Positions 33,530 through 40,092 of a stretch of 64,000 nt of DNA are shown one piece after another; position 1 is the stretch's first letter; each line of letters starts with the position of its first letter. The notes below the pieces were generated by a model. The model did no database searches and was not told the origin of the DNA. It saw nothing but the letters and a program-made list of their open reading frames with translations. A program made the translations under genes and the position numbers. Location of the stretch: positions 1,818,501 to 1,882,500 of the forward strand of contig JAGYJG010000001.1 of the NCBI GenBank assembly GCA_018402155.1, read 5' to 3'. Source of the DNA: Bacteroidia bacterium. Its GTDB lineage: Bacteria > Bacteroidota > Bacteroidia > NS11-12g > UBA9320.

Positions 33530-33928
33530 ATGAATACCAAAAATCAACTTATCCGAAATGGAAAAATCGTACTGTTGGGACTTATAGCAAGTGGCTCTGT
33601 ACTTTTTAGCGCTTGCAGCGACAACACAGAACTCGTAGAACCAGACACAAACTCCAACACAATAGATACTGCCAAAGTATTGTATACCCAAGACGTAAAA
33701 ACACTATTGGATGGCAGCTGTGCGTTTTCTGGCTGTCACAATACTGGCTCTGCTGTGGGAAGTTTGGCTACGTATACTAGTGCAAAAAAATTTGCTGAAA
33801 ATGTAAGAATACTAGGTTCTATAAAACACGAAAGCGGATACAGCAAAATGCCAAAAAACGGAACAAAACTAGCAGCAGAAAAAATTGCACGTATAGAAAA
33901 GTGGATTACTGACGGCTATTTGGAATAG
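33530..33928 (+). CDS. Small lipoprotein with cytochrome-c-like CX4CH motif
   Basis: 132 residues with lipobox VLFSACSDN. SCAFSGCHNTG near residue 65 is a Cys-x4-Cys-His heme-attachment-like motif, and a Met in YSKMPKNGT about 47 residues later could be the second ligand. Covalent heme is therefore possible in a small electron-transfer lipoprotein, but the spacing is atypical (CX2CH is canonical). It stands alone with a terminator behind it. Confidence 0.65.
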   Translation: MNTKNQLIRNGKIVLLGLIASGSVLFSACSDNTELVEPDTNSNTIDTAKVLYTQDVKTLLDGSCAFSGCHNTGSAVGSLATYTSAKKFAENVRILGSIKHESGYSKMPKNGTKLAAEKIARIEKWITDGYLE

Positions 33929-34666: not shown

Positions 34667-35458
34667 TTACTCCCCTCTCATCACAAGCAGAGGAAGCTCT
34701 ACGTGGGCACATATAGTTTTGGTAATACTTCTATTGAAAAGATAGTCGAGCCTGCTGGAGTGTGAATGATAGATACCTAACATTCCTATTTCGTTGGTTT
34801 TGAGGTATTCATTGATACCACTTACTACATTATCATTTCTGATGGTTTCTACGGGTATTTCCAAGGCTCCAACTGAAACCGATCGAGGTGCTTTCTGATT
34901 GTCCTGGGTTAGCACGCGCAACAGAGACACCCGCACGTTTTTTGTATTCATGGCATTAAGCAACATTGCTATATACTTGGCTTTTGGCAGAACGTCTTTC
35001 GCTGTGCAAATAGTCATTTGATGCAACGGTTTCATAGTACTATTTTGAGGAATAGCAAGAACAGGATACGTACAGGTACGCACTACAGATTCGGTAACAG
35101 AACCCATCAACTTATTAGCTATATTGCTTTCTCCTTTGGTTCCCATTACTATGAGCTCTGGCTCTTTTACAAGGCTCACAGCCTCTAGCCAGTCAGCAAG
35201 ATAGCCATGGCGTAAAATTACTTCAGGCTTATCCTTAAAATCTACTAGAATACGGCTTACCAAGCCAGCCATATCTTGCTCAGCATTCTTCATCATAAGA
35301 TCATCTAGCCGGTGCATAGCTCCAGAAGCTGAGCTAGAAGCTTGTTTTACAGTGTGTAAGAGTGCAATATCCAGGTCTTCGTGTTTAAAATTTCGATATA
35401 CATAGGTAATTGCTTCATAGGCGTTTTCAGAAAAATCTGTGGGTATAATTACTTTCAT
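34667..35458 (-). CDS. Universal stress protein, two domains
   Basis: 263 residues. N-terminal VIIPTDFSENA and the ATP-binding G-2x-G-9x-G-S in VMGTKGESNIANKLMGSV mark a full UspA domain, followed by a second, degenerate domain without that motif. Such tandem proteins are cytoplasmic stress or starvation sensors. A second tandem Usp lies 110 bases upstream on the same strand. Confidence 0.9.
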   Translation of the reverse strand: MKVIIPTDFSENAYEAITYVYRNFKHEDLDIALLHTVKQASSSASGAMHRLDDLMMKNAEQDMAGLVSRILVDFKDKPEVILRHGYLADWLEAVSLVKEPELIVMGTKGESNIANKLMGSVTESVVRTCTYPVLAIPQNSTMKPLHQMTICTAKDVLPKAKYIAMLLNAMNTKNVRVSLLRVLTQDNQKAPRSVSVGALEIPVETIRNDNVVSGINEYLKTNEIGMLGIYHSHSSRLDYLFNRSITKTICAHVELPLLVMRGE

Positions 35459-35567
35459 TTTACTAGTTTTTTTATGTTGATATAATTAAAATTTTTGTGC
35501 TGGCAGCGACTAAAATGATTCACTTGTACTGATAAACTAAAAATCGTTTATGCCCACTTTCAACTAT

Positions 35568-36362
35568 TTAGTTATAAATATATAGAGGTATACTGCTCTC
35601 TTTGAGCAATTCTTTGGTTGTACTTTTATGAAACAGTTCTTTAATAAAATTGCGGTCTCTGTGTTTCAAGATGAGTAAACTCGCATCTTCATTATTGATA
35701 TATATTTTCAAGCCTTCTGCCACTGTACTTGCCCATACTGACACCTCACGAATACCACCTTCTTCACAAATTATTTTTTGTGCATATTCGTCTCTTCCTT
35801 GCTCTACGCTTACTACATCTAGTCTGGCTTCGTGCTTTCGCAAAAGTTTGTATGTTTTTTCTAATTCTTTGACTAGCGGCTCTACCTTATCGTTGCCAAA
35901 TACCGCTACATTAAAACCACGGTACACTGCATCCTTGGGTACAGCCAATATGGGTACCAGAGTACTACCTACAACAGCTGCAGTAACACTACCAAGTAGC
36001 GCCTGCATGAAACCCGATTGGCCACTCGTCCCCATCACCACTGTATCTACATCTAGCTCCGTACTTTTTTCGATTATACTATCAGAGCCTAGACCAAAAT
36101 CTGCGTGTATACTTACCTGCACACCATAGCGCTCTACCAATTTTGCAGCCAGTTGTTTTAACTGCACTGTAGTTTTACTACGCTCAGTTTTCATCATAGT
36201 ATCTGCTAGTGTGATGGGTGCATTAGCGTCTATCAAAGGTACGTGCATAGCATGCAAAAGATGCAGCTTTAGATTGTGGTCTTTGCCCCAGGCCGCAGCG
36301 TAGTGTACAGCGTTGGTAGCAGTATCAGAAAAATCGGTAGGTACTAGAATAGATTTTATCAT
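35568..36362 (-). CDS. Universal stress protein, two domains
   Basis: 264 residues from ATG 36362 (MIKSILVPTDFSDTATN); 29 in-frame codons upstream lack Usp sequence. G-2x-G-9x-G-S appears in VMGTSGQSGFMQALLGSV, and the second half is a degenerate Usp domain. With its neighbour at 34667 it belongs to a stress-related group (small Cys protein, rhodanese, REC-Crp regulator, PAS kinase) on the same strand. Confidence 0.9.
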   Translation of the reverse strand: MIKSILVPTDFSDTATNAVHYAAAWGKDHNLKLHLLHAMHVPLIDANAPITLADTMMKTERSKTTVQLKQLAAKLVERYGVQVSIHADFGLGSDSIIEKSTELDVDTVVMGTSGQSGFMQALLGSVTAAVVGSTLVPILAVPKDAVYRGFNVAVFGNDKVEPLVKELEKTYKLLRKHEARLDVVSVEQGRDEYAQKIICEEGGIREVSVWASTVAEGLKIYINNEDASLLILKHRDRNFIKELFHKSTTKELLKESSIPLYIYN

Positions 36363-36619
36363 TATTTTATATTTTAAAATTTTTTGTGTTTCGGGTGCAC
36401 ATGATTGTCCCTTATTTCTTTTTTTGCACTTCAAAGCTATAAAGCGCAAAAAGATGTAACGCTGCGCGGAATCATTATACGCTATGATTTTTAGTAGCCG
36501 TTACTATTTTGGCAAGTTAGTCAAAATAAGATAAAGACACAATGTAAAGCCCCAACACTTGCCATCCTTATATTTGGCTCCAATATCAATGCTCCAATTT
36601 ATGGAGCATGCTGCATACA

Positions 36620-36862
36620 TTAGCTAGATTGCAAAACTTGGGTAATAGCCGATTCTAGTAAAGCTGGCACAGATTTTTTCTCGGCTTTTAAGCTATTAAG
36701 CTGACCTAGATATGCCTGTATCTTTATAGCTCTATCGCTATATAGTCGTTCTACACATTTACTACACATATCACTCTTTGGTTTGGAGCAGCTGCGAGGA
36801 ACTACTTTTTCTAAATTGAGTATTAACTCATTAATTTCGGTGCGTTTTTTGACAGTAGTCAT
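36620..36862 (-). CDS. Small Cys-containing protein, unknown
   Basis: 80 residues. SCSKPKSDMCSKCVERLYSD supplies three Cys in a C-x8-C-x2-C pattern, possibly a zinc or redox site. The rest is helical. No family recognised. It lies between the Usp genes and the rhodanese, same strand. No gene is visible in 36863-37141. Confidence 0.55.
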   Translation of the reverse strand: MTTVKKRTEINELILNLEKVVPRSCSKPKSDMCSKCVERLYSDRAIKIQAYLGQLNSLKAEKKSVPALLESAITQVLQSS

Positions 36863-37141
36863 AATTTTGATTTGATAATTTTTTGTTTCAATTTAAATTT
36901 TTTGCGCTTTTTACAATTCGATTGGTTTCTGACTCATATAGGCACTTAAGCGGTATTTAGGGGGCAGATATGGCTACTCTGTCATTGTATCATTTTGCAC
37001 AAAGCGCTATAGACAGGCTCAGCGAGTGGATTATTAAGTTTGTGGTATAGTGGGGTCTCTGTTTTTTTGCTCGGTGATTATTGGCAGTTGGTTTGTCCAC
37101 TTGCACATGGCCTGTCATCCATAAAAAAACTAGCCTAGAGA

Positions 37142-37459
37142 TTACACTATGCGTATATCGATGCATTCCTTAATTCCTTTTGTTAGATTATACAAACTCT
37201 CAAAGCCCATTTCTGCAAGTTTACGTGCAGCTAACTTGGTACGCGTGCCATCTGTGCAGTATAAAAAGAGTTTCGTATTTCTATTTGATACAGAAAAATA
37301 CCCAACAAAGCGCTGAGACATCAGATCAACATTCTCCGCATTTGGTAGATGACCTTTATCAAAATCTTCTGTTTTACGAACATATGCAAGCCTACCTTCA
37401 GCGTTGTGACAAAGTTTGTAAAATTCCTCTAGATTTGATATGTATTTAACCCGGTGCAA
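37142..37459 (-). CDS. Rhodanese-like single-domain protein
   Basis: 105 residues. LAYVRKTEDFDKGHLPNAEN is the usual CH2A-type motif (here AYVRKTEDF replacing the common DVR) and LYCTDGTRTKLAARKLAEMG has the catalytic Cys loop CTDGTRT. A sulfurtransferase or persulfide-handling role is likely. Located 86 bases from the REC-Crp regulator end, same strand. Confidence 0.85.
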   Translation of the reverse strand: MHRVKYISNLEEFYKLCHNAEGRLAYVRKTEDFDKGHLPNAENVDLMSQRFVGYFSVSNRNTKLFLYCTDGTRTKLAARKLAEMGFESLYNLTKGIKECIDIRIV

Positions 37460-37544
37460 CGTGTGTGAGCTCCATTGAAATACAAATGTGCAGCACAGCG
37501 AAAGAGATTTTACTGACCATACATAGGCCAGACTATGATATTTA

Positions 37545-38558
37545 TCAGAAAGGGGCGTTTTTTAGTTTTTCGTATTCTAAAATAGTGATTTCGCTAGCAT
37601 TCACTCTCACATAGCCCGCATTTTTAAACTCAGTGAGCATTCGTATGGCTGTTTCTACCGAGGTGCCAGCCATGGTAGCTATAAGATCTCGCGGCACATT
37701 TATACCCCTATTTTGCTCGTTGGCATATACGTCATGAAGAGCTAACAGAGAATTTGCAACACGTTTTCGAACGCTCTCGTAGGCTAGTTCTAGTATTTTT
37801 TTTTCTTTTAAACGTATGTTTTTTGACAGCAATTTCAAGAATTTTCCGCTCACTTCAGCACTAGCAGAAAGTAGTCGTCTAAAATCTGCAATAGGAATTT
37901 GCCATATCACACAGTCTTCCATTGCCTCTGCTGCTTCCCCATGTCGTTGTTCTTCTAAGGCTCCCCAATAGCCAAAAAAATCATCATTTTTACAGAGCTC
38001 TAGAACCATTTCTTTACCCTCTTTATTCATATTAGTTATTTTCACTTTACCGCTACGTACAAAGTGTACAAAGCTTGTCGTGTCTCCCTCTTGGTAAATA
38101 AATTGTTTGGAGCTAAAAGACTTTACTTTCTTATGCAAAAAAAGATCTTCGAAAGTAATGCCTTTCAAAGGCTTATTGGTGTTACTACTTTTCTTCAACC
38201 TATTTTCTATAGCCTGCAGCAAGACGGTTTCTTCAAAAGGTTTGGTAATATAGTCATCTGCGCCAAGGGACATTCCCCTCCTAAAATCAGATTGTTCTGC
38301 TTTGGCTGTCAAAAATATGAATGGGATATGCAATGTTTCTCTGTGTTGACCTAAAATGTGGAGTACCCCATGACCGTCTAACCCTGGCATCATAATATCG
38401 CACAGTATAAGATCCGGTAGATGCTCTAGTGCCATTTTTATACCTTGCTTACCGTTTTTGGCTGCATAAGTTTGGTATCCACATAGCGATAGAAGTTCAG
38501 CTATATTTTCTCTGATGTCTGTATTATCTTCTATAATTAACAGCTTACTCGTATTCAT
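37545..38558 (-). CDS. Response regulator fused to Crp/Fnr-type regulator
   Basis: 337 residues. Receiver domain 5-120 with phosphoacceptor Asp54 in LILCDIMMPG, Thr84 and Lys106. A cyclic-nucleotide-binding fold follows at about 130-235 (FIYQEGDTTSFVHFVRSGKV) and a Crp-type HTH at about 265-325 (VPRDLIATMAGTSVETAIRML). No Cys cluster for an Fe-S site is seen. It thus combines FixJ-like receipt and FixK-like DNA binding in one chain. The start overlaps the kinase end by 14 bases, so the pair is a two-component system. Confidence 0.92.
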   Translation of the reverse strand: MNTSKLLIIEDNTDIRENIAELLSLCGYQTYAAKNGKQGIKMALEHLPDLILCDIMMPGLDGHGVLHILGQHRETLHIPFIFLTAKAEQSDFRRGMSLGADDYITKPFEETVLLQAIENRLKKSSNTNKPLKGITFEDLFLHKKVKSFSSKQFIYQEGDTTSFVHFVRSGKVKITNMNKEGKEMVLELCKNDDFFGYWGALEEQRHGEAAEAMEDCVIWQIPIADFRRLLSASAEVSGKFLKLLSKNIRLKEKKILELAYESVRKRVANSLLALHDVYANEQNRGINVPRDLIATMAGTSVETAIRMLTEFKNAGYVRVNASEITILEYEKLKNAPF

Positions 38559-40092
38559 ACAAGGTTATTCTAAATGTACTCCCCTCATTCAATTTACTCT
38601 CAAAACTAATTTGTGCTCCCATTATTTTAGCATATCGTTTTACTATGTTCAAACCCAACCCCGTACCTTGTATATTCCCGGCATTACTCGCTCTATAAAA
38701 TCTACCAAAAAGCTTTTTTTGGTCTTCGTTGCTTATACCTATACCTCGGTCTATAACCAAAATAGTTAAGCAGTTTTTATCAGTTGTAGCTCGCAATATA
38801 ATTTGGTCGTCACTATATTTTATAGCGTTACTTATCAGATTTAAAAGGACGTTGCGAAGCAAAAAAACATCTACCTTCCACTGTGCATTATTTGCTTGGT
38901 TTTCTATAGCAACCGTTTGCCCTACTTTGAGCATTTGGCCAGCATCTTCTGCAGCTCCAGCAAGCAGGTCATCTATCTCTACTGTTTCAGGGCTGCATTT
39001 CATAACTCCAGCTTCTATGCGCTCCAACGATAAAAAATCATTGAGAATCATCGTAAGATTCTGGACATTATTTCTTATTTTTTGGAGATGACCAAGCCTG
39101 TTTTCTTGCTGATTTGTCTCGGTATACTTACCCACCAAAGCTGCAGAGCTGAGTATACTACTCAAGGGTGTTCTAAACTCGTGCGAAGCCATAGATACAA
39201 AACTAGTTTTTAACTCATTGAGATGCTTGGCTTTAGCTAGTGCCTCAGATATTTCTGATTCAGCACGTTTCTCTTGTGTTATGTTATTTTTTACCATTAG
39301 CACTTGTTTCACTTCACCTTGGTTTATGGTGAGTGGAACGCAATTTATCCGGTATGATTTTTCTTCGTCTTGATATTCTACAATTCTCACCTCATTTCCA
39401 AAAACTACTTTCATAGTATCTTCTAGCATTTTGCGCCATTCCTGCGGAATATTTTCTAAAAAATTTTTTCCTACACGATCTACAGCCTTGGGCCCTCTAG
39501 CTCTTAGCTCACTACCCTCAGCAAATACCGTATTAAACTTTTCATCTATAACTAATATTGCTCCATTCGGAAAATTCTTTGCTATCGTTTCGTAAAGTAG
39601 CTGACTTTCTACGAGTGCTTTCTGTGCCATTTCACGCAGCTCAATTTCTTCTCTTAGTTCTGAGGTACGCAGTTCTACCCTTTCCTCCAGCTCTTCTGCA
39701 TACCCACGTATCACTTTTTCGTGAATCTTGCGCTGCGTTAAATCGTGAATTATCCCCGTGAAAAATTGCTCGCCGTCAGTCTCAAATTCACTTACTGCTA
39801 ATCTGAATGGAAATAACTCACCGTTTTTCTTCCTCCCTTCTACTTCTCGGCCTATTCCTATTATTTTAGGCTTTCGGGTAGTTTTATAGTTATGTATATA
39901 GCTACCATGCTTACTGCGGTGTGGTTCTGGCATCAAAAAATTTACATTTTGTCCTAGTACCTCATCTTTTTGATACCCAAACAAGAATAATGCGGCCGAG
40001 TTCATATCTTCTACTACACCGTTTGCATTGATGACAATAATCCCATCTAGTGTAGTTTCAAAAATAGATTGATATTTATTCTGCAAGGCCAT
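38545..40092 (-). CDS. FixL-like PAS sensor histidine kinase
   Basis: 515 residues: PAS1 (1-120), a coiled linker, PAS2 (160-275), HisKA with phospho-His304 in SHEFRTPLSS, and HATPase (400-515) with GLGLNIVKRYAK. PAS1 resembles FixL (NFLMPEPHRSKHGSYIHNYK, IIGIGREVEGRKKNGELFPF). In FixL, heme-ligating His precedes IIGIGR; here the residue is Lys, so O2 sensing by heme should not be assumed. It is cytoplasmic (no membrane helix) and directly paired with the REC-Crp regulator. Confidence 0.92.
   Translation of the reverse strand: MALQNKYQSIFETTLDGIIVINANGVVEDMNSAALFLFGYQKDEVLGQNVNFLMPEPHRSKHGSYIHNYKTTRKPKIIGIGREVEGRKKNGELFPFRLAVSEFETDGEQFFTGIIHDLTQRKIHEKVIRGYAEELEERVELRTSELREEIELREMAQKALVESQLLYETIAKNFPNGAILVIDEKFNTVFAEGSELRARGPKAVDRVGKNFLENIPQEWRKMLEDTMKVVFGNEVRIVEYQDEEKSYRINCVPLTINQGEVKQVLMVKNNITQEKRAESEISEALAKAKHLNELKTSFVSMASHEFRTPLSSILSSAALVGKYTETNQQENRLGHLQKIRNNVQNLTMILNDFLSLERIEAGVMKCSPETVEIDDLLAGAAEDAGQMLKVGQTVAIENQANNAQWKVDVFLLRNVLLNLISNAIKYSDDQIILRATTDKNCLTILVIDRGIGISNEDQKKLFGRFYRASNAGNIQGTGLGLNIVKRYAKIMGAQISFESKLNEGSTFRITLYEYE

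Follow-up and report, generated by a model that had tools for sequence, protein, structure and literature searches.

Oxygen control of the cbb3 oxidase is known via FixLJ-FixK and via Fnr. In rhizobia the cascade FixL-FixJ-FixK controls fixNOQP and fixGHIS, while mycobacteria possess the heme hypoxia kinases DosS and DosT, which act with DosR on a dormancy regulon containing Usp, Hsp20-like and CBS proteins. Crp-type outputs are listed as rare in response-regulator censuses. Here we describe a cluster of genes at positions 34667-40092 of a 64,000-nucleotide stretch (the window) of contig JAGYJG010000001.1 from a Bacteroidia bacterium, in which a sensor histidine kinase adjoins a response regulator made of a receiver and a Crp fold (REC-Crp). 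On balance, and with modest confidence, we favour the view that the pair is a FixL-type oxygen switch shortened to one regulator, a two-component system that responds to low oxygen. If it works as FixL does, the kinase would autophosphorylate at His304 when O2 leaves and would then phosphorylate Asp54 of REC-Crp. The phosphorylated REC-Crp dimer would bind TGAY-N4-RTCA palindromes, often in pairs 22 bp apart, and switch on the rhodanese and usp genes and, in related loci (kin), the cbb3 oxidase operon as well. One protein would do the work of both FixJ and FixK of rhizobia. With the oxidase genes absent from the genome that carries the window, the stress/sulfur branch alone would be left.

The cluster is real and conserved. 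Its six open reading frames (ORFs) are all on the minus strand, in the order kinase, REC-Crp, rhodanese, Cys protein, Usp1 and Usp2, and the ORFs of the kinase and REC-Crp overlap by 14 bases. This is the gene set described in the original prediction, which was made from the sequence alone, and it is borne out by Pfam: PAS, HisKA and HATPase in the kinase, Response_reg, cNMP_binding and HTH_Crp_2 in the regulator, then Rhodanese, Usp and Usp, the 80-residue Cys protein being without a Pfam or NCBIfam match. The genome is 2.49 Mb in size and 99.6% complete, and has a single full-length REC-Crp.

The FixL-type PAS domain and its pocket

The first PAS domain of the kinase, PAS1, had been called FixL-like, and the comparison with solved structures agrees. 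The best of these are all FixL, with 1dp6 aligned to residues 7-122 without gaps at E 1.4e-32; among the matches listed, the PAS domains of DosP and YtvA reach 9.7e-15 and 1e-7. The original prediction also placed a Lys at the heme-His position, and reasoned that PAS1 may sense something other than O2. That position was misnumbered. The numbering of BjFixL was fixed from PDB alignments, in which 1y28 reads IIGIGA against wild-type IIGIGR, and 2cmn reads SYISAYR against wild-type ISRYR; we take these to be the R220A and R206A mutants of BjFixL, respectively. Counting back 20 residues from R220 puts His200 in RSRHDSY, with His214 in DPHIIG. This numbering matches the residue list in PMC10765370. 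As given there, the proximal heme ligand is His200, on the F-alpha helix; Arg220 forms a bond to the ligand of the heme, the distal side is lined by Ile215, Leu236 and Ile238, and the heme-propionate contacts are Arg206 and His214, the Ala mutant of Arg206 having weakened O2 control (PMC10765370). The equivalent of His200 in the window kinase is His62, which is present, and the Lys that had been placed as heme ligand, Lys76 within KPKIIGIGR, falls at His214. Lys76 is rejected as the heme-ligand position on the mutant alignments and that residue list, and the suggestion of a signal other than O2 rested on this misplaced ligand.

The remaining pocket residues have their counterparts in Ile77 (Ile215), Leu98 (Leu236), Val100 (Ile238) and Asn68 (Arg206). 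Across alignment A2, which comprises 15 FixL-type kinases, the kin of the window kinase, the equivalents of His200, Tyr203, Tyr207, Ile216, Arg220, Leu236 and Gly251 are kept in every one. A control set of 17 PAS domains, from other kinases adjoining a REC-Crp, was aligned with BjFixL: His is found at position 200 in 14 of them, and the FixL set of IIGIGR, Leu236 and Gly251 in none of the 17. Judged from these alignments, the His200 equivalent alone is weak evidence for heme, and the whole pocket is stronger. Because the proximal His, the distal Arg and the Ile/Leu/Val pocket are all present, our leading guess, and it is a prediction, is that PAS1 most likely binds heme in the manner of FixL and senses O2.

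The propionate contacts Arg206 and His214 of FixL are not kept in the window kinase, which has Asn68 and Lys76. Among the 15 kinases the 206/214 pair is R/H in two (L137 and L138; L labels denote kin loci and G labels the genomes compared), N/K in 11, D/K in one and N/N in one, and on this alignment the two positions change together. It is somewhat unlikely, in our estimate, that PAS1 carries no heme and instead senses flavin, redox state or another small ligand, with the kinase driving REC-Crp for a stress response. The replacement of the propionate contacts in 13 of the 15 kinases would fit such a sensor, and so would the fact that the window genome keeps the switch without cbb3, ccoNO being missing also from the FixL-type-kinase genomes G019, G020, G026 and G033. 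However, the proximal His and distal Arg occur in 15 of 15, the pocket is that of FixL and unlike the control PAS domains, 206 and 214 vary jointly, as though the propionate contact had moved, and the kin show linkage to cbb3, all of which favour heme and O2. The kinase does not pass the NCBIfam FixL model NF041777 (it scores 154.7 bits, the cut-off being 850), and its core is like those of the PhoR and HK853 types.

The REC-Crp regulator

The regulator had been described as a FixJ-like receiver merged with a Crp/Fnr-like effector. The fusion stands, as the Pfam domains demonstrate; the FixJ likeness is not supported. Among the structure, family and fold matches listed, the PhoP/PhoB/YycF/RpaA types come first for the receiver. 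FixJ is absent from the best 60 of its 322 PDB matches and from the 50 fold matches listed, which in itself excludes nothing, and in place of the LuxR-type C-terminal helix-turn-helix of FixJ the regulator has HTH_Crp_2. The phospho-acceptor set D11, D54, T84 and K106 is present, with D54 invariant in alignment A1. The related claim that the FixL-FixJ-FixK cascade is cut to one step is plausible, given the pair at cbb3 genes in the kin and a shared site; a FixJ-like origin of the receiver is not supported.

With its cNMP-type beta roll and HTH_Crp_2, the C-terminal part belongs to the Crp/Fnr family; its nearest matches are 2gau and E. coli Crp. E. coli Crp contacts cAMP through E72, R82 and S83; these residues are missing from REC-Crp, which has Tyr, Gly and Glu at the corresponding places of the alignment. 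Fnr carries an N-terminal cysteine cluster (Fe-S). No such cluster is found in REC-Crp, whose N-terminus is the receiver and whose only Cys residues are at 26, 53, 189 and 216. The structure predicted for REC-Crp from 10 sequences has pLDDT 82.6 and pTM 0.41 and provides no usable domain arrangement; the fold search with this model covered in effect only the receiver.

The window genome has two HTH_Crp_2 proteins in total, of which only REC-Crp has the E-T-x-I-R helix, shared with Fnr-like regulators adjoining cco in other genomes; the second has a different helix, SRVVISR. It is worth adding that this second protein (222 residues; L125, G000:C3:36000-39000) lies near an ORF with a metallo-beta-lactamase fold, which on our reading resembles a persulfide dioxygenase, and that genome G030 carries two REC-Crp genes (C2:76015-77058 and C12:64177-65217), each with its own adjoining kinase. 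In the open-licence literature we found no REC-Crp response regulator and no FixL-like kinase named in Bacteroidetes, which is no proof of their being unpublished.

Linkage to the cbb3 oxidase and the binding sites

We examined 37 kin loci. The REC-Crp gene is above the bit cut-off in 35 (not in L116 and L140), and a kinase lies beside it in 33 of these, the exceptions being L043 and L123. Where the kinase is of the FixL type, of about 515 residues, it is accompanied by the rhodanese, Usp1, a protein of 126-129 residues, one of 120-123 residues and Usp2, with some loci lacking the rhodanese or single Usps. In L127, L129, L131 and L132 the cluster continues into ccoI and a fused ccoNO; L127, L129 and L131 also show ccoP and ccoG. 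The contig of L128 stops within ccoI. NCBIfam identifies ccoNO of L127 as cbb3 subunit I/II, and the L129 copies of ccoG and, below the cut-off, ccoP. Both small proteins, of about 126 and 121 residues, are conserved; they are encoded between the two Usps in the cbb3 cluster (L131:7958-8338 and L131:7594-7956, and kin), and neither Pfam nor NCBIfam matches them. By eye, relatives of the smaller one also lie near REC-Crp in L139, L141 and L036.

A count over 58 genomes of the order, the window's own included, gave 27 with full-length REC-Crp and 26 with ccoNO: 16 have both, 11 REC-Crp only, 10 ccoNO only and 21 neither (Fisher p 0.036, shared ancestry ignored). The two genes are within 7 kb of each other in 7 of the 16 genomes having both, several of the others being on split contigs. 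In the family to which the window belongs, 9 of 14 genomes that carry the FixL-type kinase have ccoNO, versus 4 of 21 that do not carry it (p 0.009, again with shared ancestry ignored). A stand-alone Fnr-like regulator is found inside the cco cluster in 6 of the 10 ccoNO-only genomes, and REC-Crp and these regulators look like alternatives. In the window genome ccoNO was not found (the one match, of 23%, is to an aa3-type subunit), nor was ccoI, for which there is no positive control in that genome, although the same query recovers the kin copies; tblastn of cco and the other kin-cluster genes against the window gave nothing better than E 0.05.

Palindromes of several spacings were counted in the intergenic DNA of 14 cluster loci, from which the motif was also read. 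TGAY-N4-RTCA occurs 18 times in 44 intergenic stretches (6551 bp) versus a mean of 1.1 expected, with a maximum of 4 in 30 shuffles. Other spacings occur 0-3 times in the same DNA, and in the coding parts there is no excess of TGAY-N4-RTCA (6 versus 8.6 expected). Where two sites stand 22 bp apart, their junction reads RTCA-N10-TGAY, which is found 13 times versus 0.87. Sites precede the rhodanese gene at 8 of 10 loci, ccoI at 5 of 5 and the kinase gene at 2 of 14, and are not found upstream of ccoNO (0/4), the Cys gene (0/3) or the gene for the 126-129-residue protein (0/5). The motif was chosen after viewing these loci, and genomes with unlinked cco genes served as an independent check: ccoI is preceded by perfect 22-bp pairs in G028 and G031; in G030 it has one exact site, which makes a pair if one mismatch is allowed; G013 and G027 have only inner half-sites at ccoI, G051 has a site farther upstream, and in G034 and G052 no exact site was found upstream of ccoI. 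The search for shared Crp/Fnr-type sites proposed in the original prediction has therefore yielded one, upstream of the rhodanese, ccoI and some usp genes, and the idea is not refuted on the count named there, the lack of a common site.

In the window, the first half of the rhodanese palindrome shares its TGA with the REC-Crp stop codon, and therefore only the second half is free of coding constraint. TGAY-N4-RTCA occurs 4 times in the whole window versus 3.1 expected, and two other matches, at the Cys gene start codon and inside the rhodanese, are probably chance.

The wider targets were surveyed in three REC-Crp genomes (G030, G034 and G026), with 33 tandem places listed, 25 of which were read in 17 stretches; 22 of the 25 are intergenic. 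Pfam was run on 10 proteins. Seven adjoin tandem sites, namely Hsp20 twice, Usp, a CBS pair, a 4Fe-4S subunit, YceI and pyruvate:ferredoxin oxidoreductase; the others were ccoI of G028 and the two small cluster proteins. Further genes adjoining sites include those of outer-membrane and secreted proteins. From these domains the targets look like a low-oxygen and stress regulon, which is not assignable to REC-Crp alone because tandem pairs are equally common in G003 and G008, which have no REC-Crp. Same-genus genomes without REC-Crp contain 17 (G003), 9 (G008), 6 (G011) and 7 (G007) 22-bp pairs, each versus 0 for the reversed pattern. In three stretches read among the tandem sites of L188, L182, L185 and L221-L223, no ORF start was found within 400 bp. 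The 22-bp tandem as a signature of REC-Crp was rejected, as it is also found in genomes without the protein. That a different Crp/Fnr protein uses the sites, with REC-Crp controlling something else, we regard as quite unlikely. The abundance of tandem sites in genomes without REC-Crp agrees with such a reading, as does the finding that 6 of the 10 ccoNO-only genomes have, at cco, a stand-alone Fnr-like regulator with the helix of REC-Crp, but the one other HTH_Crp_2 protein of the window genome differs in its helix, and in the kin the sites lie inside the REC-Crp operon itself.

Several observations weigh against an oxygen switch of the kind we favour. Many PAS domains have the His200 equivalent, so it is no proof of heme, and Arg206 is replaced by Asn in the window kinase. 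A full site precedes Usp1 in only 2 of 9 cluster loci (inner half-sites in 4 more), and Usp2 in 0 of 7. The window genome has no excess of single sites (118 versus 218 for the reversed pattern) or of tandem pairs with at most one mismatch (0 versus 3), and tandem pairs are plentiful in same-genus genomes without REC-Crp, such as G003 and G008. CcoNO is lacking in 11 of the 27 REC-Crp genomes, and the p values take no account of shared ancestry, L127 and L128 being near-identical.

We reject a large regulon for the genome of the window, neither single nor tandem sites being in excess there. Because this genome lacks ccoNO, ccoI and a genome-wide excess of sites, the switch is probably retained there to serve the rhodanese and Usp genes, unless it is a relic. 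The relic reading, in which the cbb3 genes are lost and the switch is decaying with little function left, we consider unlikely. It would account for the lack of site excess, for the degenerate second half-site at the rhodanese and outer half-sites at Usp1, and for the absence by tblastn of any cco remnant in the window. Against it, active-site residues are intact in the kinase, receiver and rhodanese, no reading frame is broken and the rhodanese retains its site; moreover, G020 and G033, also without ccoNO, retain the pair, and G020 retains a site upstream of the kinase too. Retention for the rhodanese and Usp genes also forms part of a fuller version of the oxygen switch, which we put forward only tentatively and as rather doubtful in its entirety: the heme-propionate salt bridge would have moved from 206 to 214 (Asn206/Lys214), the kinase would signal directly to a 'phospho-FixK' REC-Crp acting on 22-bp palindrome pairs, and the cbb3 target would have been lost. 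The 206/214 swap would then offer a natural test of how a FixL PAS relays the heme signal to its kinase. A switch retained after the oxidase has been lost would likewise exemplify a regulator that outlasts its principal target.

Table 1 Features of the cluster in the window
Feature	Position	Strand	Description
Sensor histidine kinase	38545..40092	-	515 residues; FixL-type PAS1 (residues 7-122), HisKA with His304, HATPase_c
Second PAS-like stretch			In the kinase; our own reading
His62 codon	39907..39909	-	BjFixL His200, proximal ligand position; kept in 15/15 FixL-type kinases aligned
Lys76 codon	39865..39867	-	BjFixL His214, propionate contact
Arg82 codon	39847..39849	-	BjFixL Arg220, distal; hydrogen bond to O2 in FixL
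REC-Crp response regulator	37545..38558	-	337 residues; receiver Asp11/Asp54/Thr84/Lys106, Crp fold, recognition helix SVETAIR
Crp/Fnr-type palindrome	37536..37547	-	TGATAAATATCA, upstream of rhodanese
Tandem	37511..37548	-	Full site and half-site GTCA at 22-bp register; kept in L126, L127 and L128, as ATCA in L129
Rhodanese	37142..37459	-	105 residues, single domain; active-site loop CTDGTR, Cys68
Cys protein	36620..36862	-	80 residues; CX7CX2C; also in L127 and L128
ATCAT-N8-ATGAT	36471..36488	-	Upstream of Usp1; two inner half-sites of 22-bp tandem; inner half-sites also in L127, L128 and L130
Usp1	35568..36362	-	264 residues, counted from ATG at 36362
Usp2	34667..35458	-	263 residues

The Usp1 ORF as listed begins at 36449, and the ATG at 36362 is the better start. 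Adjoining the cluster on the opposite strand (33530-33928) is a small lipoprotein-like ORF with CX4CH (CAFSGCH) and a weak match to cytochrome c551. At 1403-2451 two plus-strand ORFs resemble, on our reading and with no search made, a split transposase of the IS630 type.

Comparison with known systems

The rhizobial FixL-FixJ-FixK system has in common with the present one a FixL-type PAS with the heme-ligand His and the distal Arg, and, on our reading of the sites, Crp/Fnr-fold control of cbb3 and its Cu ATPase through sites of the TGA-N6-TCA type. The kinase core here is HisKA/PhoR-like, unlike that of FixL, and the receiver is PhoB-like; receiver and Crp fold are fused, there is no LuxR-type FixJ, and the genes are of Bacteroidota type, not rhizobial. 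Because of the low score on the FixL model, the PhoR-like core and the PhoB-like receiver, the likeness appears to be one of design, and is not shown as descent. A one-step analogue of FixL-FixJ-FixK is well supported in the sense of 'works like', not in that of membership.

The Fnr-like regulators at cco (L159-L162, L168 and L169) have the same helix pattern, GTATE[TS]-x-IR, and the same TGAY-N4-RTCA near cco. In contrast to REC-Crp they have no receiver and no kinase partner, and their sites are mostly single. The regulon of DosS/DosT-DosR resembles the tandem-site targets in the kin, but its kinases use GAF heme domains and its regulator is of the NarL type. NmpRSTU of Myxococcus xanthus is similar in that a heme-dependent kinase heads a two-component pathway over cbb3, a P-type ATPase, Usp and CBS proteins, and different in having a protoglobin sensor, a phosphorelay and an NtrC-like regulator (PMC11841059). 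If our interpretation is right, the pair described here would represent a third arrangement for the control of cbb3, in which a sensor kinase is coupled directly to a Crp-fold activator in Bacteroidota-like bacteria.

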